A DNA stretch of 10,947 nucleotides from Syntrophorhabdus sp. (GTDB lineage: Bacteria > Desulfobacterota > BSN033 > UBA1163), in NCBI GenBank assembly GCA_020724025.1, contig DYHU01000114.1:1-10947 (forward strand), given 5' to 3'. Position numbers and translations under genes: made by a program. Of the stretch, positions 1 through 10,947 are shown in pieces; position 1 is the stretch's first letter; the number at the start of each line of letters is the position of its first letter. The notes below the pieces were generated by a model. The model saw only the letters and a program-made list of their open reading frames with translations. It did no database searches and had not been told where the DNA came from.

Positions 1-1002
1 GCAAATGCCAGCGTGACCGATGTCAAAGGAGACCGCAATCTGGGCCCCCATGAACAGCCTGATAAGGATATGTACCTTCGCGTCGTCGACCAGACCCAAG
101 AGGGGATCATCGTCAGAGGAGCCAAGGCCCACCAGACCGGGTCAGTCAGTTGCCATGAGGTGATCGTCCTTCCAACGCGTGCGATGGGGAAGGGGGATGA
201 GGATTATGCCCTGGCCTTTGCCATCCCTTCCGACACAAAGAACCTCATTCATGTGGTGGGAAGGAATTCGATGGATACCCGCGAGATCGAAGGAGTCGAT
301 TGCGGAAATATCCGGTACAGCAAGTACTGCCCCACCCTCATCTTTGATGAGGTGTTGGTGCCATGGGACCGAGTCTTCATGTTTAGAGAAGTTGAATTTG
401 CAGGAGAGATGGTGAATCGCTTTTCTGCTTTTCACCGTCAATCTCATGGCGGCTGTAAATCGGGAAAGATCGATGCCATGACCGGCGCCGCCCTGATGAT
501 GATGGAATATAACGGGACATCAAAAGTGAGCCACCACAAGGAGAAGGTGATCAACATGATCCATATGGCGGAGACCCTTTATGGTTGCAGCCTGGCGGCC
601 TCCTATGAGGGAAAGAAGGAACCTTCGGGCACCTATTTCATCGATCCCATCCTGGCCAATGCCTCCAAGATTCACGAAGGGAAAGAGATGGCTGAAGCCA
701 CCCGCCAGATGATCGATATCGCCGGTGGTTTTGTGGCAGACCTGCCTTCTGACAGGGATTTCGAAAATCCTGAGATCGGTGAGCTTTTGAAAAAATATTT
801 AAAGGGCGCTACGGGTATACCGGTTGAGAAAAGGATCAAGATGCTCCGACTGGTTGAGAAAATGGCCATGGAGAGCGCTGATACGATCTCCGATATACAC
901 GGAGGAGGTTCCCCTGCCGCCCACCGGCTTACGATCTTCAGGGAATCGGACATCGACTACAAAAAGAACTGCGCCAAACGTCTGGCCTGCATTGAGGATT
1001 AG
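1..1002 (+). CDS. 4-hydroxybutyryl-CoA dehydratase / HpaB superfamily enzyme, 5'-truncated
   Basis: The frame is open from base 1 to the TAG at 1000-1002, so the gene starts before the window; the GTG at 13 is only the first in-window start-like codon. About 333 residues are visible of a family near 490. Numbering from that GTG, the TDVKGDR and RGAKAHQTG stretches (residues 2-8 and 35-43) and the HRQSHGGCK stretch (141-149) are typical of the flavin-binding acyl-CoA-dehydrogenase-like fold of AbfD (4-hydroxybutyryl-CoA dehydratase / vinylacetyl-CoA isomerase) and the related HpaB hydroxylases. His141 and Cys148 have the seven-residue spacing of the AbfD [4Fe-4S] ligands His292 and Cys299, which favours AbfD over HpaB. 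The other two ligands (Cys99, Cys103) would lie upstream of the window. Lys149 matches AbfD Lys300. By my recollection of AbfD, Glu257, Tyr296 and Glu455 correspond here to Cys106, His145 and Ser293, so the exact reaction is uncertain. It is the first visible gene of a plus-strand catabolic cluster. Confidence 0.85.
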   Translation, partial: ANASVTDVKGDRNLGPHEQPDKDMYLRVVDQTQEGIIVRGAKAHQTGSVSCHEVIVLPTRAMGKGDEDYALAFAIPSDTKNLIHVVGRNSMDTREIEGVDCGNIRYSKYCPTLIFDEVLVPWDRVFMFREVEFAGEMVNRFSAFHRQSHGGCKSGKIDAMTGAALMMMEYNGTSKVSHHKEKVINMIHMAETLYGCSLAASYEGKKEPSGTYFIDPILANASKIHEGKEMAEATRQMIDIAGGFVADLPSDRDFENPEIGELLKKYLKGATGIPVEKRIKMLRLVEKMAMESADTISDIHGGGSPAAHRLTIFRESDIDYKKNCAKRLACIED

Positions 1003-1037
1003 GGAGGAAGGCCATGTCCATGGCCAAAACAAACTAA
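1002..1037 (+). other. Orphan ribosome-binding site with seven-codon ORF (possible gene remnant)
   Basis: A strong Shine-Dalgarno sequence, GGGAGGA (1002-1008), overlaps the stop of the preceding gene. Five bases later an ATG (1014) opens a frame that reads MSMAKTN and stops at TAA (1035-1037). The C-run of the palindromic repeat begins at the next base, 1038. The signal is as good as those of the real genes here, but the product is too short to be a recognisable protein. It may be the 5' end of a gene whose body was lost when the repeat arrived, a leader peptide, or chance. Confidence 0.35.
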
Positions 1038-1077
1038 CCCCCCCTTTTCCCCCCTTTATGAAAGGGGGGTTGGGGGG
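1038..1077. repeat. C/G-rich palindromic intergenic repeat
   Basis: Seven C, four T, six C and TTT are followed by an ATG loop (1058-1060), then AAA, six G, TT and six G. The inner stem (1049-1057 with 1061-1069) is nine perfect base pairs. The outer C and G runs can extend it with a small TTTT/TT bulge. Sequences of this form are common dispersed intergenic elements in environmental bacterial genomes, recognisable from spurious translations such as PPFIKGGKGG. The hairpin sits between the AbfD-like gene and dctP and could affect readthrough or mRNA stability, but it has no following T-run and is not called a terminator. Confidence 0.7.
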
Positions 1078-1109
1078 ATTGGTAAATTTAACGAGAAGGA
1101 GGTAGAGGA

Positions 1110-2129
1110 ATGAAGACGAAGAAGATGTTGACAGGTTTATGGGTAGCAAGTTTGTGTGGGATTTTTCTGACGGCTTTTTTTCTTGTAAAACCAGTGGCCG
1201 CCAAAGAGATTCGTGTTGCCACTGTCGCCCTTCCTGAAACGACTGTCCATCAAGGTCTCGATAGATGGAAGGCAGTGATTGAGGAACGTTCTGGAGGGAA
1301 GTTGGGCGTCAAGGTCCTCGGCCGTGCGGTTATGGGGGGTGACCGCGAAATGATCGAAGGTTGCCGGCTGGGTACCTTGGATGCAGGCATTGTAAGTGGT
1401 TCGGTCCTGGCCACTCTTATCCCCCAGTACTCCATGGTGGCTATGCCTTATCTTTTTAACAACCATGATGAGGTCAACGCCTTTTTAGATGGACCGATTG
1501 GCCAGAAGCTCTTCAAGATGCTGGAAGATAAAGGATTGGTGGGTCTCGGTTGGTCCACCTGGTCATTCCGCGGTATCTGGAATAATGTCAGACCTATCAC
1601 TAAGTCGAAAGACCTCAAAGGTCTGAAGATTCGGACCGTCGAAACCCCTCTGGATGTCTCCACCATGACCTATATGGGGGCCATTGGTACGCCGATTGCG
1701 TGGAGTGAGTGCCTGATCGGTCTAAAGCAGGGAACCGTGGACGGAATTTCGACAACTTATGGTCTGGGTTACCATCTCAAACTCTATGAACTTGCCAAAT
1801 TTGCATCCCGAACCAATCATTACTATGAAACCGCTCCACTCATCATGAGCAAAAAGCTTTTCGACTCCTTCACTCCGGAAGAGCAGAAGATGATCAAGGA
1901 AACGGCGGCGGAGGCCCTGCTCTGGGCCAGAAAAGAACAGGCACAATTTGAGGAAAAGGCCCAGTCCCTCCTGGAGGAGAAAGGTGTGAAAGTAAATTCC
2001 TTGAGCCCCAAGGCCTTTGAGGAATTTAGAGAAAGGACGAAGCCCGTTTATGAACAGTTCCGACTCAAGATTGGTTCGGAGTTTATGGACGAGGTGTTCG
2101 CCTTTATCAAGACGGTAAGAAAAAAATAG
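1110..2129 (+). CDS. dctP: TRAP transporter substrate-binding protein, DctP family
   Basis: This 339-residue periplasmic solute receptor would capture an organic acid anion and deliver it to the DctQ/DctM membrane subunits encoded next. Residues 1-31 form a signal peptide: a Lys-rich start, a hydrophobic core at about 9-26 and a V-A-A end before KEIRV, so cleavage after Ala31 is likely. The mature protein shows the DctP pattern throughout. GLKIRT (171-176) contains the conserved carboxylate-binding Arg (Arg175), and GLKQGTVDG (204-212) is the family signature. The C-terminal part is a charged helix ending in FIKTVRKK. The length is normal for the family. The ATG at 1110 has a strong AAGGAGG 6-12 bases upstream. 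A perfect hairpin follows the gene. The ligand cannot be deduced; the neighbours suggest a hydroxy- or oxo-carboxylate. Confidence 0.95.
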   Translation: MKTKKMLTGLWVASLCGIFLTAFFLVKPVAAKEIRVATVALPETTVHQGLDRWKAVIEERSGGKLGVKVLGRAVMGGDREMIEGCRLGTLDAGIVSGSVLATLIPQYSMVAMPYLFNNHDEVNAFLDGPIGQKLFKMLEDKGLVGLGWSTWSFRGIWNNVRPITKSKDLKGLKIRTVETPLDVSTMTYMGAIGTPIAWSECLIGLKQGTVDGISTTYGLGYHLKLYELAKFASRTNHYYETAPLIMSKKLFDSFTPEEQKMIKETAAEALLWARKEQAQFEEKAQSLLEEKGVKVNSLSPKAFEEFRERTKPVYEQFRLKIGSEFMDEVFAFIKTVRKK

Positions 2130-2144
2130 TCTGATCACCGATAA

Positions 2145-2175
2145 CCTGGGACGGGATCACCATTTCCGTCCCAGG
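2145..2175 (+). promoter_or_regulatory. Perfect 10-bp hairpin between dctP and dctQ
   Basis: CCTGGGACGG (2145-2154) is the exact reverse complement of CCGTCCCAGG (2166-2175). One G-T and one A-T pair extend the stem to 12 bp with a seven-base loop. No T-tract follows, so it is unlikely to be a full terminator. Its right arm runs into the AGGAG (2173-2177) upstream of the dctQ start. In binding-protein transporter operons such hairpins commonly protect the upstream binding-protein mRNA or reduce permease expression. That role is inferred here. Confidence 0.6.
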
Positions 2176-2189
2176 AGTCGGGGATAATT

Positions 2190-2660
2190 ATGAAAATGAA
2201 AAAGGCCTTAGACATCGTCGAAATGGCCATCCGGTTCATTTCCCGGGTATTTATAGGTGCCATCGTAGCCGTTATCTTTTATTCAGTCGTCATGCGTTAT
2301 GTATTCCAGCGCCCCCCCTTCTGGGCAGAAGAGTTGAGCCGATTCATTTTTATCTGGATCATCATGCTTGGAGCAGTTCTGGTCACCCGTGAACAGAGTC
2401 ACATCGAGATTGTTTTTATTGTTAATCTCCTCCCGAAGAAATGGAGGTTTGTTTTATCCATCTTTACCCGTCTCTTAATGATCGCCTTCTGTTGGGTGAT
2501 GGTTCAGCAAGGGCTGAAGATATACCCGATTGTAGCAGAGGCATCCTCACCCACCTTTGGAATCTCCATGGGGTGGTTATACTTATCCATTCCTGTGGGT
2601 GGCTTTTTGATGGGGATCTGCATTCTGGAGAATCTCTTTAAATCTTTTTTAAAACGATAA
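2190..2660 (+). CDS. dctQ: TRAP transporter small membrane subunit, DctQ family
   Basis: This 156-residue inner-membrane protein forms the TRAP membrane complex with DctM. Four hydrophobic segments are visible at about residues 17-36, 50-66, 85-106 and 126-148, the DctQ topology. The stretch at 36-62 (RYVF..PPFWAEELSRF....IIMLGA) is the family signature between the first two membrane helices, and H71-I-E lies just after helix two, as is usual. The ribosome-binding signal is weak: GGGGA at 2180-2184, and AGGAG at 2173-2177 in the hairpin arm. An in-frame ATG at 2196 would also serve. The 60-base gap after dctP holds the hairpin, while dctM follows after only 28 bases, which supports one transcript. 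Confidence 0.93.
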   Translation: MKMKKALDIVEMAIRFISRVFIGAIVAVIFYSVVMRYVFQRPPFWAEELSRFIFIWIIMLGAVLVTREQSHIEIVFIVNLLPKKWRFVLSIFTRLLMIAFCWVMVQQGLKIYPIVAEASSPTFGISMGWLYLSIPVGGFLMGICILENLFKSFLKR

Positions 2661-2688
2661 AGAGGGTTTCCTTCGAGGAGAAATTCGT

Positions 2689-3966
2689 ATGTTGATGGTC
2701 TATGCATTGATCGTTTTCCTTCTCCTTATCTCTATAAGAGTCCCTATCTACTTCTCCTTTGGCTTAACAGCCACCTTTGCCTGCATCGTGGGAGGCCTTC
2801 CCCTACAGATCATCGCACAGCGTCTCATGATCGGAATGGACTCGTTCGTCCTTTTGGCCGTCCCTGGGTTTGTGCTTGCCGGGGAGATCATGTGCCAGGG
2901 AGGGATCTCGAAGCGGATCGTCGATTTTTCAAAGGCCATTATCGGTCATCTTAAGGGTGGACTTACCATGGTGACAGTCTTAACCAGCATGATCATAGGC
3001 GGGATTGCGGGTTCGGCTGTGGCAGAGACGGCTGCCACAGCCTCTATCCTCATCCCTTCACTTGAGAAGGAGAAGTATCCGAAAGAATTTTCTGCAGCAT
3101 TGGTCGGAACAGCTGGACCGGTTGGCAATATCATTCCCCCATCGATTCCCATGGTCGTCTATTCGATGGTTTCAGGCCTTTCTCTACTCGACCTTTTCCT
3201 GGCTGGCTACTTTCCTGGGATGATTATCGGATTCAGCCTGATGGTATATTGCTACCTGGTTTGCAAGAAGAGAGGTTACGGTCGAACCACAACCCGTTTT
3301 TCCTGGAGTAATCTTCTGGTGGTTTTCAAGAGATCGATCTTGGCCATCATCATTCCCATCATCATCGTTGGAGGGATCGTCACTGGTGTGTTTACGCCAA
3401 CTGAATCGGCCATGATCGCTGTTGTCTACTCTTTAATTGTTACCATCCATATCTATAAGGAGATGACCTGGGCCAGTATGCCGAGTATATTGTTAACGAC
3501 TACCAAGACCTCAGCAAAGCTGGTGATGATCATGGGCGCCGGTTCTGTCTTTTCCTACATTTCGATCAACGAGGGGATCCCTGAACTCTTCAAAAATTTT
3601 ATGCTTGGAGTTTCGAGTAATAAATATGTCATTCTCCTCATACTGAACATCATCTTTCTCTTTGCAGGATTCCTGATCGATATCCTGGTGGCAACGATTA
3701 TCTTCGTGCCGGTTCTAATTCCATTGCAGCAGGCCCTGGGACTCGATCCTCTGCATATTGCCATGGTTTTTATTATCAACCTGTCGATCGGGCTTTTGAC
3801 CCCGCCTGTCGGTTATTCTCTCTATGTTTCATCGGCTATCTCTGGCGTCCCCGTGGAGAAGGTTTCACGTCATGCCATTCCTTTTGTGGCCATTATGTTC
3901 GCGATCCTGGGTCTGATGACGATCTTTCCACAACTAACGGTTTTTGTGCCCAGGTTATTTCGTTAA
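2689..3966 (+). CDS. dctM: TRAP transporter large permease subunit, DctM family
   Basis: This 425-residue polytopic inner-membrane protein is the ion-coupled transport subunit of the TRAP system. It is hydrophobic almost throughout, as expected for about 11-13 helices. Family signatures are clear: GGIAGSAVAETAA (104-116), the IIPPSIPMVVY stretch (148-158), and near the C-terminus the NLSIGLLTPPVG stretch (364-375). The length is typical and no frameshift is seen. GAGGAG (2675-2680) precedes the ATG at 2689 by eight bases. An in-frame ATG at 2695 is a less likely alternative. The cupin gene follows after 30 bases, so the whole TRAP set plus cupin probably forms one operon. Confidence 0.96.
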   Translation: MLMVYALIVFLLLISIRVPIYFSFGLTATFACIVGGLPLQIIAQRLMIGMDSFVLLAVPGFVLAGEIMCQGGISKRIVDFSKAIIGHLKGGLTMVTVLTSMIIGGIAGSAVAETAATASILIPSLEKEKYPKEFSAALVGTAGPVGNIIPPSIPMVVYSMVSGLSLLDLFLAGYFPGMIIGFSLMVYCYLVCKKRGYGRTTTRFSWSNLLVVFKRSILAIIIPIIIVGGIVTGVFTPTESAMIAVVYSLIVTIHIYKEMTWASMPSILLTTTKTSAKLVMIMGAGSVFSYISINEGIPELFKNFMLGVSSNKYVILLILNIIFLFAGFLIDILVATIIFVPVLIPLQQALGLDPLHIAMVFIINLSIGLLTPPVGYSLYVSSAISGVPVEKVSRHAIPFVAIMFAILGLMTIFPQLTVFVPRLFR

Positions 3967-3996
3967 TGGTTGGAGTCGTGAAGAAGGAGGAGTCGA

Positions 3997-4353
3997 ATGC
4001 ACTATGTCAAGGAAGAAGGCATCGCAGGAATTCAGTTACCCGGCAGGCTTTGGAAGAAGTTGATCGGACCTGAGGATGGTGGATGCAAGAATATGATTTT
4101 CGGAGTAGTTACTTTTCCTCCAGGCAGTGACCCAGGGACGCACGTCCACCCAGGGGAGGAGGAGATCATCTATGTTCTTTCAGGACGTGGTGAAACAAAG
4201 GTTGGAGGAAAGATCTATCCTTTGGAACCTGGCGTGGGAGTTTATATTGAACCTGAAGTGGAGCACGGCGTCAAAACACTGGGTGATGAACATTTAGTCC
4301 TGATCAGCGTATTTAGTCCACCTGTTAAGCCTGGTTCTTATGATAAGCGATAA
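3997..4353 (+). CDS. Single-domain cupin protein (Cupin_2 type)
   Basis: This small 118-residue soluble protein consists of one double-stranded beta-helix barrel. Cupin motif 1 is present as GSDPGTHVHPGEEE (43-56), giving metal ligands His49, His51 and Glu55 or Glu56. Motif 2 is PEVEHGV (86-92), with the fourth ligand His90. The full metal set suggests a metal-dependent enzyme, such as an isomerase, lyase or oxygenase acting on a small acid, though small cupins can also be sensors or binding proteins. A strong AAGGAGGAG sits just before the ATG. Placement directly after the TRAP permease implies that it acts on, or responds to, the transported compound. The specific reaction cannot be told from sequence. 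Confidence 0.9.
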   Translation: MHYVKEEGIAGIQLPGRLWKKLIGPEDGGCKNMIFGVVTFPPGSDPGTHVHPGEEEIIYVLSGRGETKVGGKIYPLEPGVGVYIEPEVEHGVKTLGDEHLVLISVFSPPVKPGSYDKR

Positions 4354-4475
4354 TGACCAAGTTCCAAGCACCAATAACCAGATAATAACCAATGACCAAA
4401 TTACAATATCCAAACGTTTTTTAAAAATAAGCAACTGGAGCTTATTTGGAATTTGGGATTTGGTTATTGGAATTT
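4354..4475. repeat. AT-rich self-complementary intergenic repeat
   Basis: The element starts directly after the cupin stop codon. The left half is rich in CCAA words and the right half in TTGG words, and the two are inverted copies. CCAATAACCAGAT (4371-4383) matches the complement of ATTTGGTTATTGG (4458-4470) with one mismatch. In the middle, AAATAAGC (4425-4432) pairs perfectly with GCTTATTT (4440-4447) around a seven-base loop. The whole could fold as a long imperfect hairpin. Elements of this look are common dispersed repeats in environmental genomes. No gene is seen in the gap; a clean ribosome-binding site for the next gene follows at about 4503-4509. Confidence 0.65.
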
Positions 4476-4515
4476 AATACAGCATGATTAACATCCCAGT
4501 TTAAGGAGGAATAAG

Positions 4516-5370
4516 ATGGAGCGAAGCAAATTGATTGAGGAGGTGAAGTACTACTTTGCAGAGTCTGATCACTGGAGACGTCTCTGCGCAGCACTCCAAG
4601 ATCCTGATCCCGAAGGGACTCATATCCATGCTTATGTAGAGACATCGGTACATCCTGATTCTCTGGAAGCGATCATGAAAGGGTACTTCAAAAAGAGAGG
4701 CTGGCCGTTGAGGCGAAAGATCGATCACATGGCCCCGAAGGCAGGGATGGGAAGCTTGCACGGTATGGAGCCAAAGGGTAAACCCCATTTTGACTTTCAA
4801 TGGTTCTTCAATAAGGATATAGGCTTAAGGGCATGTGAAGGAGGAGAGTCCGGTTGTAATCTCCTCATTTGGAATCGATGGTACATCAATCAATTCTATC
4901 GCCAGTTTCCATTTCGAAAAGTCGGCCCAAAGGAGGAAAAGGCGTTGAAAGCCTACTTCAAATTGGATCATTTTTTGAAGGGACTTGAATTTCCAGTCAT
5001 GCCAACCACGAACCACATGCATATCAATGTGCACACCCATGTCCATCCCAACAAGATAGCCAAATATGCTGAAGAGGCTTTAGCGCGCGAAGGCATTCAA
5101 CTCTACTACACTTGCCCGAATGTCTATCTCGTCAGTGGAAAATATCGAGGGAAGCTTGTCTTCATGTGCAAAAAACCTGAGGTAGTCTTTGACCTCGGAT
5201 GGCAGTTTGTTCCTGATGTAGTGATCGAGCCAGCATGGGAAACCTGGATCTTCGAAGCCAATCCTGGTTATGACGTATGGACATCCGATATGCTGGCTGA
5301 GGTCATGAGGGCGAACTATATCACACTGGATCAAAAAGAGATCGATGAGATTTTTAAAGCCTGTCGATAA
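4516..5370 (+). CDS. Unrecognised His-rich protein with internal duplication
   Basis: I do not recognise this 284-residue protein. It has no signal peptide or membrane segment, so it is probably cytoplasmic. Two regions share a repeat unit at a constant offset of 131 residues: HIHAYVETSVHP (36-47) and HMHINVHTHVHP (167-178). Each is followed by a 15-residue amphipathic helix-like stretch ending in Gly (Gly62, Gly193) and then Leu (65, 196). In the second copy, His167, 169, 173, 175 and 177 alternate as on one face of a beta strand, which suggests a metal site. Further His residues sit at 71, 82 and 91. The beta-alpha repeats recall a two-module ferredoxin-like arrangement, loosely like vicinal-oxygen-chelate or DOPA-dioxygenase-type proteins, but that resemblance is weak. 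AAGGAGG lies seven bases before the ATG. The stop codon overlaps the ribosome-binding site of the FAD dehydrogenase gene, so the two are co-translated and probably share a pathway. Confidence 0.85.
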   Translation: MERSKLIEEVKYYFAESDHWRRLCAALQDPDPEGTHIHAYVETSVHPDSLEAIMKGYFKKRGWPLRRKIDHMAPKAGMGSLHGMEPKGKPHFDFQWFFNKDIGLRACEGGESGCNLLIWNRWYINQFYRQFPFRKVGPKEEKALKAYFKLDHFLKGLEFPVMPTTNHMHINVHTHVHPNKIAKYAEEALAREGIQLYYTCPNVYLVSGKYRGKLVFMCKKPEVVFDLGWQFVPDVVIEPAWETWIFEANPGYDVWTSDMLAEVMRANYITLDQKEIDEIFKACR

Positions 5371-5374
5371 GGAG
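5369..5374 (+). promoter_or_regulatory. Ribosome-binding site deciding a TTG start
   Basis: AAGGAG overlaps the TAA stop of the upstream His-rich gene and lies six bases before an in-frame TTG at 5381. The in-frame ATG at 5345 has no comparable signal and would make the genes overlap by 26 bases. The TTG start also matches the usual N-terminus of this dehydrogenase family (LLESLIEIFG). Confidence 0.6.
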
Positions 5375-5380
5375 AGCTTT

Positions 5381-6733
5381 TTGCTTGAATCATTGATAGA
5401 GATTTTCGGACGGGAAAGGGTATCCAACGAGGAATTCGAGCTCCTCTGTTACTCAAGGGATGCAGGATCACTCCCGCCCAGATTACCCGAATACGTTGTC
5501 ATTCCCACTTCCAAAGACGAAATCCAACGTCTCTTCCATTTGGCAAAGAAAGAGAAGAAGCCCGTCATGGTCAGAGGCGCAGGATCGAGTATGTGTGGTG
5601 CTCCCATCCCACTGGTGGACTCTTCTATTATGATGGATCTCACAAGGATGAGAAGCATTGTGGATCTGAATGAAGAATCGATGTCGATCTTGGTCGAGGC
5701 GGGTATTACCTGGACCGAGGTGATCGAACATCTGGAAAAGAGGGGCTGGGAGTTGGGGTTGGAAGGCCCCTGGTCAGCGCCCTCGGCGACCGTAGGAGGA
5801 GCAATCGCAGTGGCTGCCATATCCATGGGAGCAGCACGATATGGGGGGCTTGGTTCTCAAATCCTCGGATTGGAAGTCATCCTTCCAGATGGAGAGATGA
5901 TCCGAACAGGATCAGGGGCCAATCCAGTTAACCTCATGGTGGCCAGGGATTGTAACGGGATCGATATGGCTGGTCTTTTTATCGGTTCCCATGGCACCCT
6001 TGGGGTCATCACTGAAGTGGCCTTAAAGATATATCCCCTTCACGAGATGGAAGATTATTTTGCCTTCTCATTTTCAGAATTAAAAGATGCGATTGAAGCC
6101 CTCCATGGCCTTGCAAAATATAGGATCCCTTATGATACCCGAATGTTCGTTCATCCCGTTCCTGAAGAGATCGGTGGAAGGGCAGGCATTGTCTTTATGC
6201 TGAAAGGAAGGAAGAGAGAGGTTCTGGCGCTAAGTCGCTTAGGGCTTGATCTCATGAGGACCGCAAAGGGCAAGGAGATTCCTGACTTCGGAAAAAGCTA
6301 TTATCAGGGAAGATTTACAACCCGCGCAGAGGCATTTGGAAAGGCAGGACCGGGTTGGCTTGAGGTGGCAGGATTTATTCCGATCAAACGGTATCCTGAA
6401 GTGGCAGCTCCGATCCTGGAATACTTCGCAGTACGAAATGTGGAGATCGAGCGATTGGGGATCAAGTGGAGTTTGGGAGGTCTTTTGGAAACGAATGCCG
6501 TCAATATTCCCATGGCCCTCTTCTGTAATGAATCGAATTCAGAGGCTTGGCAGAAGATTCTTGACTATCTTTGGGAACTGACAGATCTGATGTTTGGTCT
6601 CGGTGTCAGCCCCTACTGGATTGGTCACTTAAATCCATACTGGAAAAGAAAGGTTGGGAATTTTTATCAGGTTTATGAGCGAATTAAAAAGAGTCTCGAT
6701 CCTGACGGAATTCTCAATCCGGGATTGTTATGA
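5381..6733 (+). CDS. FAD-linked 2-hydroxyacid-type dehydrogenase (GlcD-like)
   Basis: This flavoprotein is of the VAO/PCMH family (FAD_binding_4 plus FAD-oxidase C domains), the type that oxidises 2-hydroxy acids such as glycolate or D-lactate. Numbering 450 residues from the TTG at 5381, the FAD domain spans about 35-220: VRGAGSSMCG (64-73) binds the pyrophosphate, TVGGAIA (137-143) is the second FAD motif, and GSHGTLGVITE (202-212) closes the domain. The substrate/cap domain follows, and the protein ends in the family signature LDPDGILNPG. If the ATG at 5345 is used instead, the protein has 462 residues. The stop codon overlaps the start of the next gene by four bases (ATGA), so this subunit and the Fe-S protein are very likely partners, the flavin passing electrons to the Fe-S clusters. 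A GlcE-like third subunit is not visible. Alkyl-DHAP-synthase-like activity is possible but less likely. Confidence 0.9.
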   Translation: MLESLIEIFGRERVSNEEFELLCYSRDAGSLPPRLPEYVVIPTSKDEIQRLFHLAKKEKKPVMVRGAGSSMCGAPIPLVDSSIMMDLTRMRSIVDLNEESMSILVEAGITWTEVIEHLEKRGWELGLEGPWSAPSATVGGAIAVAAISMGAARYGGLGSQILGLEVILPDGEMIRTGSGANPVNLMVARDCNGIDMAGLFIGSHGTLGVITEVALKIYPLHEMEDYFAFSFSELKDAIEALHGLAKYRIPYDTRMFVHPVPEEIGGRAGIVFMLKGRKREVLALSRLGLDLMRTAKGKEIPDFGKSYYQGRFTTRAEAFGKAGPGWLEVAGFIPIKRYPEVAAPILEYFAVRNVEIERLGIKWSLGGLLETNAVNIPMALFCNESNSEAWQKILDYLWELTDLMFGLGVSPYWIGHLNPYWKRKVGNFYQVYERIKKSLDPDGILNPGLL

Positions 6734-7917
6734 AGAGAGAACATTTAGAATTGGAGCATTATAAAGAGGAGATCTATCACTGCTTTCGTTGTGGGTTTTG
6801 CAGGGAATTGGTTCTGGCAGGGGCCTATCGCATCTGTCCCATTCGGGAGGAATTGGGTTTTGAGACGACCTATGCCAGAGGTCGGATCGGAGTGGCCAGG
6901 GCACTTCTTGAAGGAAAGATTGAATATACAGATCCCTTGGTGGAGAGAATCTATTCTTGCCTTGGTTGTTATAACTGTAAGGCCCACTGTCCAACGAAAG
7001 TGGATACCCCTTCAGTCGTCCGTGGTCAGAGGAAAGAGATTTTTCAGGAAGGCCTTCGGAAGATCAAGGCCCTCGATGAGATCGATGCCAACATTGAGAC
7101 CTATAAGAACCCCTATGGTCTGGGTAAAAAGATGAGGAACCGATGGGCTGAAGGTCTCGATCTGCCCAATCGAGGGGAACTTCTCTATTTCCCAGGATGT
7201 GCCACTTCTTACGACAGACCAGAGATTGCTCAATCCTTGGCGAGGATCCTGAAGAAGGTTGGAATCGAGTTGGCTTACTTAGGTGAAGAGGAATTGTGTT
7301 GTGGCATTCCTCAAATCTGGAATGGAGGATTTTCATCAGCCAAAGCATTGATGGAGGAGAACGGAAGAAGGTTTGAAGAGGCGGGTGTTAAGACGATCCT
7401 CACCTCCTGTCCAGATTGTTATAATGTTTTTCACCACCACTATCAGTCGATTTTAGGAAAGCAACCTTTTCGAGTAATTCACATTACAGAGTTTCTTCTT
7501 CATCTCATGAAGGAGGGAAGAGTCACTTTTCAAGAGGAGATAAAGAAGAGGGTCACCTATCATGATCCCTGTCGATTGGGCAGAGAAGCCGGCATCTTCG
7601 ACCCCCCGAGGGAGATCCTCAAAAGAATCCCTGGAATTGAGTTGGTTGAAATGAGAAGAAACAGGGAGCATGCTTGGTGTTGTGGAGGAGGAGGGGTGGT
7701 CAATCTGGTCTATCCTAAGTTGAGTATCAAGATTGCAAAGGATCGTGTTCAAGAGGCCCTCGAAACGGGCGCCGAGATGCTCGTCACCTGTTGCCCCCTT
7801 TGTTACAGACAGTTCTATAATCGAGCTTGGGAGAGGGGATTGGAGTTAATAGAATTGATCGTCCTCGCTGCCACTGCAATGGGAATTGAGTCTATAAACC
7901 CTTTACCCTCAACTTAA
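6730..7917 (+). CDS. Fe-S electron-transfer subunit, GlcF/HdrD-like (two CCG domains)
   Basis: This 395-residue protein is the likely electron-accepting partner of the FAD dehydrogenase. The N-terminal part binds two [4Fe-4S] clusters. The first set is Cys18, 21, 24 and 36, with a wide last gap before Cys-Pro; the second is Cys77, 80, 83 and 87 in the classic CxxCxxCxxxCP form. Two CCG (DUF3483/HdrD-type) domains follow: Cys157, Cys190-Cys191-Gly192 and Cys227/230, then Cys281, Cys317-Cys318-Gly319 and Cys355/358. All cysteines of both CCG motifs are present, so both sites look functional. No membrane helix is visible, so electrons probably go on to quinone or another carrier through a partner outside the window. 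Its ATG overlaps the stop of the preceding gene by four bases, which shows translational coupling. A heterodisulfide-reductase-like role is the alternative. Confidence 0.92.
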   Translation: MKREHLELEHYKEEIYHCFRCGFCRELVLAGAYRICPIREELGFETTYARGRIGVARALLEGKIEYTDPLVERIYSCLGCYNCKAHCPTKVDTPSVVRGQRKEIFQEGLRKIKALDEIDANIETYKNPYGLGKKMRNRWAEGLDLPNRGELLYFPGCATSYDRPEIAQSLARILKKVGIELAYLGEEELCCGIPQIWNGGFSSAKALMEENGRRFEEAGVKTILTSCPDCYNVFHHHYQSILGKQPFRVIHITEFLLHLMKEGRVTFQEEIKKRVTYHDPCRLGREAGIFDPPREILKRIPGIELVEMRRNREHAWCCGGGGVVNLVYPKLSIKIAKDRVQEALETGAEMLVTCCPLCYRQFYNRAWERGLELIELIVLAATAMGIESINPLPST

Positions 7918-8027
7918 TCATTACACTGATAACATCTCATCGGAGGAAAAGACAAAGTCACCTTTTTAAGATGGCTGACAGGGGGATAAAAGTACCTTTC
8001 GGAGAATAACCATGGGAGGACAATCTT
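7918..8027. other. Intergenic gap before the Ldh_2 gene
   Basis: This 110-base gap has no recognisable gene or terminator. It contains two similar words, AAAGTCACCTTT (7954-7965) and AAAAGTACCTTT (7988-7999), 34 bases apart, which might be an operator pair or chance. A twelve-codon ATG frame (7971-8009) lacks a nearby ribosome-binding site. GGGAGGA at 8014-8020 serves the next gene. No convincing -35/-10 promoter can be picked by eye. Confidence 0.4.
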
Positions 8028-9110
8028 ATGGGAAATAATGACTTACGGCATATATCGTTTGCTGATTTAAAAAGTTTTTGCAAACAGGTTTATCAGAGGG
8101 TAGGGGTTCCGGATGATGAAGCCGATATTGTAGCAGACCTTCTCGTCAGGGCAGACCTTCGCGGTGTGGAAACACACGGAGTGACAAGGCTTCCAATCTA
8201 TATTCAGAGGCTCCAGAGGGGTTATGTCCGGGCTGAATGTAAAATGACCATCGTTAAGGAGAAGGGGGCCACGGCCTTTGTCGAAGCCCATGGATCGATG
8301 GGTCATGTGGTATCGTATAGAGCGATGGAGATGGTCATCCAGAAGGCGATGGAGTTTGGAATGGGCTGGGTTTCTGTAAAGGATAGCGGCCATTTTGGTG
8401 TGGCGGGTCTTTTCCCCATGATGGCCCTTGAGAAAGGTTTGATAGGCTATGTGGTTACCAACTCGGCACCGATGATGGCTCCCTATGGTGGTCGGGAACG
8501 TATCTTAGGGAATAATCCCTTGTCCTTTGCCTTTCCTGCAGATCGATATCCGGCCATTGTATTGGATATGTCGATCAGTGTGGTCTCGTCGGGGAAATTG
8601 ATATTGTGCCGGAAGAAAGGTGAGAAAATACCCCTGGGTTGGGCTTATGATAAGGACGGTCTTCCAACAGAGGATCCTTATGAAGGCTATGAAGGGGGAG
8701 GTTTTTTAGCCGCAATCGGTGAGTATAAAGGATACGGAATGATTCTGGCCCATGAGATGCTGACATCCGTTTTAACTGGTGGCAAATGGACTCAATACAT
8801 TAAGAGTTTGTACGAGGAGGACAGAACAGGCATCCAGGGAACCTGCCATTCCTTCATGGCCATCGATCCGGACTGTTTTGCCGGAAGAGAAAAGTTTAAG
8901 AAAGACATGGATCAATACATTCAGACCATTAAAGAGAGCAGAAAAGCAAAAAACGCTGAAGAGATCTTAATGCCAGGAGAACCGGAATACCGAACTGAAG
9001 CCAAGCGACTGAAAGAGGGCATTCCTTTGGCTCCAGCCACGACAAAAGAATTGGTTACTCTGGGAGGGCCATTCGGGATTTCGCTTCCGCTGATGGATCA
9101 TCATTTATAA
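8028..9110 (+). CDS. Malate/L-lactate (Ldh_2) family NAD(P)-dependent oxidoreductase
   Basis: This 360-residue protein belongs to the type-2 malate/lactate dehydrogenase family, which is unrelated to classical LDH. Members reversibly reduce 2-oxo acids or cyclic imino acids with NAD(P)H (malate, L-lactate, sulfolactate, ureidoglycolate, piperideine-2-carboxylate). Family landmarks in order: RGVETHGV (45-52), DSGHFGVAG (119-127) with the conserved His122, the PYGG...GNNPLSFAFP stretch (152-170), LDMS...SSGK (179-190) and GEYKGYGM (231-238). The length and C-terminus are normal. The substrate cannot be assigned within this family. The ATG at 8028 has GGGAGGA seven bases upstream. It shares the strand with the upstream operon, but the 110-base gap may separate it. 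In context it would be an NAD(P)-linked counterpart to the FAD/Fe-S dehydrogenase. It converges with the aldolase gene across a 32-base gap with no clear terminator. Confidence 0.93.
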   Translation: MGNNDLRHISFADLKSFCKQVYQRVGVPDDEADIVADLLVRADLRGVETHGVTRLPIYIQRLQRGYVRAECKMTIVKEKGATAFVEAHGSMGHVVSYRAMEMVIQKAMEFGMGWVSVKDSGHFGVAGLFPMMALEKGLIGYVVTNSAPMMAPYGGRERILGNNPLSFAFPADRYPAIVLDMSISVVSSGKLILCRKKGEKIPLGWAYDKDGLPTEDPYEGYEGGGFLAAIGEYKGYGMILAHEMLTSVLTGGKWTQYIKSLYEEDRTGIQGTCHSFMAIDPDCFAGREKFKKDMDQYIQTIKESRKAKNAEEILMPGEPEYRTEAKRLKEGIPLAPATTKELVTLGGPFGISLPLMDHHL

Positions 9111-9142
9111 AATAGATAATCTCAACCCTTTTCCGTTTTCAA

Positions 9143-9913
9143 TTAGGGACGCTTCATTTCTTCGAGCGTGGTTTTGGAAGCATTGTACATAAATCCGATG
9201 TCAGTGGAGCAGGCCAGGACCATCATTCCTTTCGCCTTCCACTTCCTGATTGCATCGACATTTCCGATGTGAATGCCCGAGGCTTTCCCCTTCTTGTTGG
9301 CCGTCTCAACCACCTTGTCAATAGCCCGGGTTAAAATCTCAGATCCCATCTGGTCGGGAACCCCCATGGAGATGGAGAGGTCGTTCGGTCCGATCAGTCC
9401 CACATCAATGCCTTCCACGCCAAGAATGGCATCGATATTTTCGATCGCTTCTTTGGTCTCGATCTGAGCAATGAGGAGGGTTTGTTCATTCGCCTCTTTC
9501 ATGAATTCGAAGGCTTTTAAGGGTTTATAATCGGTCTGGCCGGTCTGGGTGCCGAATCCTCGCTGGCCCAATGGAGTATATTTACTATATTGAACAATTA
9601 CCTCTGCTTGCTCCCTTGTAGAGGTCATGGGGACCATGATTCCCTCTGCTCCTGCATCCAGGACTCTGGCAATGAAATGGGACTCCAGATGTGGGATTCT
9701 GATGACAGGAGCGATCCCGCAAGATTTCGCCCCTCGAATCAAATCAGCCACAGTCTCCATGGAATAGTTCCCATGTTCCATATCAATCAAGACAAAGTCA
9801 TAACCGACTGAGGCAAAGATCACGGGTGCTCCGGGATCACGAGCCTGCCGGATCATCGTTCCATAAACACATTCTCCTGCCAACACCTTCTTTCTTAAAC
9901 CTGCCCAGACCAT
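9143..9913 (-). CDS. HpcH/HpaI family aldolase
   Basis: This is a class II, divalent-metal-dependent pyruvate aldolase of the HpcH/HpaI type (256 residues), which cleaves 4-hydroxy-2-oxo acids to pyruvate plus an aldehyde; citrate lyase beta-like relatives share the fold. Key residues are visible: IDMEHGN (43-49) with the catalytic His47, IRIP (71-74) with Arg72, AQIETKEA (149-156) with metal ligand Glu152, and GLIGPNDLS (172-180) with metal ligand Asp178. The start is taken as the ATG at 9913, because GGGAGG (9924-9919) lies five bases before it; the in-frame GTG at 9919 falls inside that ribosome-binding site. It is probably co-transcribed with the upstream DapA-family gene, although a 143-base repeat-bearing gap separates them. 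The aldehyde product is unknown. Confidence 0.92.
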   Translation of the reverse strand: MVWAGLRKKVLAGECVYGTMIRQARDPGAPVIFASVGYDFVLIDMEHGNYSMETVADLIRGAKSCGIAPVIRIPHLESHFIARVLDAGAEGIMVPMTSTREQAEVIVQYSKYTPLGQRGFGTQTGQTDYKPLKAFEFMKEANEQTLLIAQIETKEAIENIDAILGVEGIDVGLIGPNDLSISMGVPDQMGSEILTRAIDKVVETANKKGKASGIHIGNVDAIRKWKAKGMMVLACSTDIGFMYNASKTTLEEMKRP

Positions 9914-9918
9914 AAGCA

Positions 9919-9924
9919 CCTCCC
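9919..9924 (-). promoter_or_regulatory. Ribosome-binding site fixing the aldolase start
   Basis: GGGAGG on the minus strand is followed by five bases and the ATG at 9913. The upstream in-frame GTG begins on the last base of this site, so it cannot use it. The aldolase is therefore two residues shorter than the longest reading frame. Confidence 0.7.
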
Positions 9925-9938
9925 AAAATAATAGTTTG

Positions 9939-10020
9939 AAAAAGGTAAAGGTTACGAAGCACGTATCGTTTAACGTTAAAAGGTAAAGGCTTATAAACGA
10001 TTAACGTAACCCCTTAACGA
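9939..10020. repeat. AT-rich repeat with imperfect stem-loop between the two aldolase genes
   Basis: GGTTACG (9950-9956) pairs with CGTAACC (10005-10011), and ATCGTTTA (9965-9972) pairs with TAAACGAT (9994-10001), giving an imperfect stem-loop over 9950-10011. The same stretch also holds two near-direct copies of AAAAGGTAAAGG (from 9940 and from 9978). TTAACG words recur up to 10020. Such TTAACG-rich intergenic elements resemble dispersed repeats of environmental genomes. No gene is seen in the 143-base gap. Confidence 0.55.
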
Positions 10021-10062
10021 AACGGGCGTCCTCACCCTAACCTTAACCAAACCCTCTTTTTT

Positions 10063-10947
10063 TCAAAGTAGTTCCATATTCCTCAGGATCTCCTTCAGCT
10101 CCTCTTTAGCCTTTGAACTTATTCCTCCCACAGGGGGTATTCCGACTCCCGCCTCGATCCCGATAAGGTTTAATACTTCCTTAATCACCACGGGGAAAGT
10201 CCCCAGGTCGAAAGCCAATCGCAGGGGAGCCAGACGGAACTGGGCTTCGAGTGATCGTTTCATATCCCCTGCTTTGAAAGCCTCATAAATTTCGACGATG
10301 ACTCTTGGCGCCACATTTGCGGTAGCGGCAATGGCGCCCTTTCCCCCGTAGCAAAGCGTTCCATAAATGAGAGTATCACGGCCAGCCAGAACAGAAAATC
10401 GATCATCCGTCCTACGGATATATTCTGCCGTGAGTGTGAGATCTCCGGACGAATCTTTGATGCCAACGATGTTATCCACCTGAGAAGCACGGACGACAAA
10501 ATCCGCAGAAATGTTCACTCCCGTGCGGCCTGGATTATTGTAAAGGAGGACCGGAAGCCGGGTTGACTTTGAAATAGAAATATAAAATTCCATCAGCTCC
10601 GCATCATTGGGTTTGATGAAATAGGGCGTGAGGACAGAGACCGCATCGACTCCGGCGGCCTCAGCCATCTGTGTCAAAGCAATGGCTTCACGGGTCGTGA
10701 TGGCTCCTGTTCCCGCATAAACCGGAACTCGACCTCTGGTCTCATGGACCACTACCTCGATGATCCTTTTCTTTTCCTCAAAAGTGAGAGCATAAAACTC
10801 TCCCTGACTTCCAACAGGGAAGAGGCCATGAACTCCACCCTCAATCAAGTAGTTGGTCAGTTTCCGGAGGGCCTCCTCATTGATCTTTCCCTCTTTGGTG
10901 ACCGGTGTCACCATCGCCGGAATAATTCCTTTAGGTTGAAAATCCAT
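10063..10947 (-). CDS. Dihydrodipicolinate synthase (DapA) family lyase/aldolase
   Basis: This 294-residue (beta/alpha)8 barrel enzyme belongs to the class I, Schiff-base DHDPS/N-acetylneuraminate-lyase superfamily. The start is the ATG at 10947-10945, exactly at the window end, and MDFQPKGIIPAMVTP is a normal family N-terminus, so the protein is probably complete; its ribosome-binding site is out of view. Lys164 in GIKDSSGD (162-169) is the Schiff-base lysine. Tyr136 in YNNPGRTG (136-143) is the catalytic tyrosine, and Arg141 matches the substrate-carboxylate Arg of true DapA. The GxxGE loop reads GSQGE (46-50), so the second Thr of the DapA TT pair (E. coli Thr45) is Gln. That and the catabolic context argue for a 2-oxo-acid aldolase or dehydratase rather than lysine biosynthesis, but DapA activity is not excluded. 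It heads the minus-strand pair with the HpcH aldolase. Confidence 0.9.
   Translation of the reverse strand: MDFQPKGIIPAMVTPVTKEGKINEEALRKLTNYLIEGGVHGLFPVGSQGEFYALTFEEKKRIIEVVVHETRGRVPVYAGTGAITTREAIALTQMAEAAGVDAVSVLTPYFIKPNDAELMEFYISISKSTRLPVLLYNNPGRTGVNISADFVVRASQVDNIVGIKDSSGDLTLTAEYIRRTDDRFSVLAGRDTLIYGTLCYGGKGAIAATANVAPRVIVEIYEAFKAGDMKRSLEAQFRLAPLRLAFDLGTFPVVIKEVLNLIGIEAGVGIPPVGGISSKAKEELKEILRNMELL

Follow-up and report, generated by a model that had tools for sequence, protein, structure and literature searches.

Enzymes of the vicinal oxygen chelate (VOC) superfamily are described, in the accounts of the fold given in PMC4215206 and PMC3143149, as built from a beta-alpha-beta-beta-beta module that usually occurs in tandem. 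The metal acts directly as an electrophile (PMC4215206), and a member without sequence similarity to known VOC families is on record (PMC3143149). The present work concerns protein X, which is encoded in a 10,947 nucleotide stretch of Syntrophorhabdus sp. DNA (assembly GCA_020724025.1, contig DYHU01000114.1, positions 1 to 10,947), referred to here as the window. Protein X was found to be a tandem duplication of a beta-alpha-beta-beta-beta module and to belong to a real, unnamed bacterial family, for which no description was found in the open-licence PMC literature. X is probably an as yet undescribed enzyme, and it probably works like a VOC enzyme.

By definition, VOC modules are paired around one metal-binding cavity, the substrate chelates the metal and sequence similarity is not required. 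Strands 1 and 4 of each module carry the metal ligands, and glyoxalase I and the extradiol dioxygenases hold their metal at these places. X resembles the VOC enzymes in its tandem module, in conserved His and Asp residues on strands 1 and 4 and in the first 35 Foldseek rows of its model. It differs from them in having no detectable sequence homology, in a helical pair that precedes each module, in an HxH motif where a single His is usual, and in TM-scores, normalised by X, of at most 0.22 in those 35 rows. X was not assigned to the superfamily, because the tests for sequence homology to VOC families were negative and a VOC-type pairing of its modules is hypothetical.

Among individual enzymes, HglS (DUF1338, PF07063) acts on 2-oxoadipate and shares with X a VOC-type module and a setting of 2-oxo and 2-hydroxy acids (PMC7286885). 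HglS is, however, an oxygenase with an HHE triad, whereas X has HxH and Asp and no Pfam match. Module 1 of X superposes locally on L-DOPA dioxygenase (6on1) and on a C-As lyase (5hcw). DOPA 4,5-dioxygenase (PF08883) also has an HxH early in its module, but only one of 57 X-family members matches it, at E 0.063 and below the 25-bit cut-off. X itself gave no match to PF08883, and the family was absent among the families shown for clade 2 of the X family (25 of 26). PF08883 genes were found in none of 99 genomes, a scan that says nothing on absence since the 14 controls also gave none.

Internal duplication and sequence family

The gene for X, the two modules and the conserved residues are placed as follows (module limits are hhalign ranges and strands are from DSSP; residue counts are over 180 sequences of both clades, gaps excluded).

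4504..4509, + strand: AGGAGG ribosome-binding-type site before the ATG of X, read in the sequence
4516..5370, + strand: protein X, 284 amino acids, tandem duplication of the module, undescribed family
4528..4842, + strand: module 1, residues 5-109; strand 1 at 36-43, helix 47-60, strands 70-75, 78-84 and 91-98
4621..4629, + strand: H36 and H38 (HxH), module 1 strand 1; each 177/178
4759..4761, + strand: H82, module 1 strand 3; 178/179
4786..4794, + strand: H91 and D93, module 1 strand 4; each 178/178
4930..5241, + strand: module 2, residues 139-242; strand 1 at 165-174, helix 178-191, strands 195-206, 209-220 and 224-231
5014..5028, + strand: H167, H169 and N171 (HxHxN), module 2 strand 1; each 180/180
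5191..5193, + strand: D226, on module 2 strand 4, the counterpart of D93; 178/179

The duplication in X is real, and the comparison of half profiles was decisive. With an alignment of 57 sequences of the window's clade (A1) as the basis of the half profiles, hhalign aligned the N-half to the C-half with a score of 70.1 (P 1.5e-11) over 90 columns; the best of 200 column shuffles reached 25.2 and the reversed half 12.7. The same comparison within the second clade scored 87.5, and the cross-clade comparisons of halves scored 93.0 and 66.5. With both clades combined the score rose to 102.6 (P 2.4e-17), against 22.7 for the best of 100 shuffles. The duplication is common to both clades and is thus most likely older than their split.

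An earlier note on this DNA had described a duplicated 30-residue unit, with nine identities and His at 167, 169, 173, 175 and 177 at an offset of 131. All of these residues are in the sequence and the duplication was confirmed by the profiles; no sign was found that the two segments are not equivalent. The nine identities in 30 are near chance when taken alone, as 30 of 500 shuffles of X reached nine or more in an ungapped 30-residue pair, and the unit is longer than proposed, at about 100 residues (about 5-109 against 139-242). It begins with a helical Y-F motif (13-14 and 147-148), continues through the strand that holds HxH and through the HP-helix, and includes a final strand with D93/D226 and W96/W229. 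The view of X as an ancient two-module beta-alpha protein was borne out by the duplication in both clades and by the confident model described below.

Searches of Pfam, NCBIfam and PDB sequences with X, its halves and both clades gave no credible match, and the proposal that X falls in no known family held in that no confident match to a characterised family was found there. Neither a VOC family in Pfam or NCBIfam nor a FAD domain in Pfam was matched. PF07063 was matched neither by X nor, with E-values up to 1 allowed, by members of the family. Several weak matches among 54 clade-2 members were judged probably due to chance: DUF4298 (14 members, best E 0.002), UBA_9 (8, 0.0012), DUF3297 (2, 0.00027), IcmL/DotI (4, 0.00034) and TscT (3, 0.0017). 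The source names shown for the relatives were "hypothetical" or "uncharacterized" protein, where a name was given at all.

Counting that of the window, the family comprised 180 sequences, of which 123 belong to clade 1 (the window's) and 57 to clade 2. This is a lower bound, as two of the three protein searches gave the best 120 of 161 and the best 120 of 197 matches. Clade 2 was reached via a Sinorhizobium meliloti plasmid protein of 38% identity. Mean identity was 73% within clade 1, 61% within clade 2 and 34% between them. A tree built from 171 sequences of near full length had a single branch of length 1.49 between the clades, with local support of 1.0; a rooted run gave clade 1 a support of 0.96 when rooted on clade 2, which was not recovered as a unit. 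Eleven clade-1 relatives (best 120 of 161) carried organism names, ten of them Desulfobacterota-type or Aerophobetes and one Methylomirabilales, and Thermodesulforhabdus norvegica carries a clade-1 relative. Clade 2 includes Sinorhizobium, Aureimonas, Salipiger and Sphaerochaeta.

The family is rare in the genomes covered, being found in 3/395, 1/17, 2/17, 3/291, 1/192 and 3/39 genomes of groups that overlap and that each include their centre genome. No relative was found in the viral contigs and phages searched, and plasmid searches with three queries gave the Sinorhizobium place as the only match. There, on plasmid NZ_CP146207 (11968-12849 of locus L029), the relative is unannotated in a record whose gene table has only 3 features. 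In one genome (G005) X is split into residues 1-230 (L006) and 237-286 (L028) about 4.3 Mb apart, by rearrangement or misassembly. In L002 residues 212-232 of X have another short match just downstream of the gene (G002:C10:6345-6407), perhaps a partial tandem copy.

Conserved residues and predicted structure

Each of the invariant residues H36, H38, D93, H167, H169 and D226 sits on strand 1 or strand 4 of a predicted module. A metal site in X, as suggested earlier, is plausible because invariant His and Asp occupy equivalent places in both modules. Other residues were nearly as constant, namely E85 and K213 (each 178/179), E222 (177/179) and D253 (176/176), and the His of the HP motif was looser (His46 153/178, His177 175/180).

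The five alternating His that had been taken as a metal feature of the second copy found no support in conservation across the 180 sequences, and they are mostly peculiar to this copy of X. Position 175 is His in 1/180. Position 173 is His in 102/180, none of them outside the window's clade; the 57 clade-2 sequences have Glu there without exception. In the model, strand 1 of module 2 ends at residue 174 and leaves 175 and 177 outside.

The model of X had a pLDDT of 95.1 and a pTM of 0.89 and showed two beta-alpha-beta-beta-beta modules by DSSP; module 2 modelled alone gave the same DSSP order with a pLDDT of 95.5. The module that defines the VOC fold is thus present in both halves of the model. 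Foldseek rows 1-35 of the whole model against the PDB were all VOC enzymes, as classed by title: HPPD and hydroxymandelate synthase at the top, and also methylmalonyl-CoA epimerase, BphC and glyoxalase, many of the rows being chains of the same few proteins. VIA gave VOC-type titles, by our count, in 25 of 50 rows, and the absence of a family from the VIA lists does not exclude that family. Each half of X could be superposed on VOC modules on its own, and the local superpositions on VOC chains covered 56-73 residues at 2.6-4.6 A. Examples are model residues 34-120 on the C-As lyase (5hcw; 63 residues, 2.6 A), residues 163-234 on 2rk0 (58 residues, 2.7 A) and module 1 on the L-DOPA dioxygenase of Streptomyces sclerotialus (6on1; 67 residues, 3.6 A). 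No viral structure matched the X model at E 0.001.

Gene neighbourhood

X lies in a same-strand run that includes a tripartite ATP-independent periplasmic (TRAP) transporter, followed by two genes on the opposite strand. Assignments are from Pfam, with NCBIfam for the GlcD-like and GlcF-like genes.

13..1002, + strand: AbfD-type (4-hydroxybutyryl-CoA dehydratase-like) HpaB-family protein, C-terminal part, cut by the window edge
1110..2129, + strand: TRAP transporter DctP
2190..2660, + strand: TRAP transporter DctQ
2689..3966, + strand: TRAP transporter DctM
3997..4353, + strand: Cupin_2 protein, 118 amino acids, HxH...E...H
5345..6733, + strand: GlcD-like FAD oxidoreductase
6730..7917, + strand: GlcF-like Fe-S / CCG-domain partner
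8028..9110, + strand: Ldh2-family 2-hydroxyacid dehydrogenase
9143..9919, - strand: HpcH/HpaI-family aldolase
10063..10947, - strand: DHDPS/DapA-family lyase

Neighbours were counted over 11 loci, the window and ten loci from different genomes. L016 and L028 were left out, since X is represented there by a C-terminal fragment alone; the count includes L006, where X is cut after residue 229, and L005, where the contig ends within X, and contig ends limit L003, L005 and L023. In every one of the 11 loci the gene directly upstream of X was a cupin of the same family, with TRAP genes upstream of the cupin in nine (not L005 or L021) and an AbfD-type gene within six. The GlcD/GlcF pair, previously regarded as the defining partner of X, was present in only 4/11 (window, L001, L002, L003) and cedes that place to the cupin. 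A FMN/pyridine-nucleotide reductase of old-yellow-enzyme type occurred in 7 of the 10 loci besides the window (L002, L004, L006, L020-L023). LarA-type genes were strong in L001 and weaker, over the cut-off, in L004 and L023. Parts of a 2-oxoacid:ferredoxin oxidoreductase were found in L001, L004, L020 and L022, a count that covers these tested loci.

The nearest solved structures to the cupin were three chains named potential cupin (E 4.1e-9 to 4.7e-9) and the dimethylsulfoniopropionate (DMSP) lyase DddK (E 5.8e-9), matches too distant for naming its function. The spacer between cupin and X is 162 bases in the window (4354-4515), 346 in L001 and 30-55 in the other nine loci. The window spacer contains AT-rich inverted repeats (arms 4389-4414 and 4445-4470, 81% complementary) and looks like a small inserted palindromic element.

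The truncated HpaB-family gene at 13-1002 could be typed through a homologue in L001 that is longer and shows 92% identity where the two overlap. The L001 protein matches the 4-hydroxybutyryl-CoA dehydratase-type structure 1u8v (E 1.8e-134) and retains C-x3-C and H-x6-C stretches, which we take to be the cluster ligands of AbfD-type proteins. This places the window gene with AbfD, the 4-hydroxybutyryl-CoA dehydratase / vinylacetyl-CoA isomerase type, rather than with the flavin monooxygenases. Nearby in L002, L004 and L028 there is another TRAP cluster, distinct from that of the window (about 28-35% identity); in L004 it is accompanied by metallo-beta-lactamase-fold and arylmalonate-decarboxylase-type genes.

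For clade 2 the gene context comes from one locus, 24.8 kb of the Sinorhizobium plasmid. A PCC-domain gene and a D-2-hydroxyacid dehydrogenase lie just downstream of the X relative, and Ldh2, RraA-like, shikimate dehydrogenase-like, DHQase II, TRAP-like and DapA-like genes lie within 12 kb. Genes for 2-hydroxy and 2-oxo acids thus recur near both clades: GlcD/GlcF, Ldh2, HpcH, DapA, LarA-type and 2-oxoacid:ferredoxin oxidoreductase genes in clade 1, and D-2-hydroxyacid dehydrogenase, Ldh2, RraA-like and DapA-like genes in the clade-2 locus.

Proposed function and alternative explanations

From the observed duplication, conservation, predicted fold and gene linkage, we infer a metal, a site geometry, a substrate class and a reaction for X. 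The reading that we tentatively prefer is a VOC-like two-module metalloenzyme with a metal between its modules, an O2-independent isomerase or lyase for 2-oxo or 2-hydroxy acids that acts with the cupin at an early step. One divalent metal would be bound through the strand-1 HxH and strand-4 Asp of each module. VOC enzymes chelate pairs of neighbouring oxygens, and 2-hydroxy and 2-oxo acids possess such a pair; its chelation by the metal could stabilise an enediolate or carbanion, and the substrate might then be isomerised, epimerised or cleaved without O2. After uptake through the TRAP transporter, one or two early steps would fall to X and the adjacent cupin. These may be followed by oxidation (GlcD/GlcF, Ldh2), by aldol cleavage (HpcH, DapA), or by ferredoxin-linked acyl-CoA formation and AbfD-type dehydration.

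Several results weigh against this assignment. No Foldseek match in the PDB reached E 0.001, and the TM-scores of 0.14-0.22 in rows 1-35 leave a packing of the modules as in known VOC pairs without support. The highest VIA Z-score belonged to a non-VOC protein, amine dehydrogenase (4.3 for the whole model, 4.8 for module 2), and the two best Foldseek rows for module 2 alone were a formate hydrogenlyase subunit and biliverdin reductase, also outside the superfamily. X-family profiles compared with VOC profiles by hhalign reached at best a probability of 16% and a score of 23.1 over 35 columns (maximum of 40 shuffles, 17.4), with 59 of 60 sequences used (L036 was dropped for a stop) and some genes counted twice. 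The sole clade-2 locus seen, on the Sinorhizobium plasmid, had no cupin match in its 24.8 kb.

The alternative that survives best, although we consider it unlikely, is a separate non-VOC fold in which HxH and Asp bind a metal for a hydrolase, a decarboxylase or metal handling, the VOC likeness reflecting a common beta-alpha-beta-beta-beta arrangement only. Against it stand the first Foldseek rows of the whole model, VOC in 35 of 35, and the recurrence of the strand-1 HxH and strand-4 Asp in both modules. A bolder and rather improbable scheme makes X a VOC-like enzyme in which two HxH/Asp sets would form a pseudo-symmetric and perhaps dinuclear site, with a module packing unseen in known VOC enzymes, and which would carry out an O2-free step on 2-oxo or 2-hydroxy acids with its dedicated cupin in an undescribed anaerobic pathway.

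It also seems improbable that X joins with the cupin in a single hetero-oligomeric enzyme whose active site lies between the two. Their adjacency is strict in the 11 loci and their genes are closely spaced in nine, but adjacency is by itself no proof of contact, and in Sinorhizobium a PCC-domain gene follows the X relative instead.

The earlier note had suggested an oxygenase, an isomerase or a lyase; the last two are still candidates, and the first is unlikely as a general function. An Fe(II) oxygenase that depends on O2, in the manner of hydroxymandelate synthase, HglS or an extradiol dioxygenase, would agree with the top structural rows (HPPD and hydroxymandelate synthase), with the presence of clade 2 in Sinorhizobium, Aureimonas and Salipiger, and with HglS, a VOC enzyme, being described in PMC7286885 as acting on a 2-oxo acid. 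The operons, however, hold AbfD-type, Fe-S and 2-oxoacid:ferredoxin oxidoreductase genes. Desulfobacterota-type and Aerophobetes groups are mostly anaerobic, and they supply ten of the 11 named clade-1 relatives, which makes O2 chemistry unlikely as the common function; clade 2 in turn includes the anaerobic Sphaerochaeta. We regard an oxygenase as quite improbable.

That X serves the GlcD/GlcF oxidoreductase as a structural or third subunit, in place of GlcE, is hardly credible: the longest GlcD-like reading frame overlaps the 3' end of X by 26 bases in the window and X adjoins GlcD in L001 and L002, but the constant linkage expected of a GlcDEF subunit fails (the pair is unseen in 7/11 loci, three of them cut by contig ends or with a broken X), GlcD/GlcF sit upstream of the transporter in L003, and X lacks a FAD-domain match.

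The X family recurs in transport-linked catabolic operons of Aerophobetes, of some Alphaproteobacteria and of mostly uncultured relatives of sulfate reducers. The relative in a named species, Thermodesulforhabdus norvegica, makes the question of X testable. Assigning the family would add an enzyme class and would help to pin down the substrates of these TRAP-linked operons.
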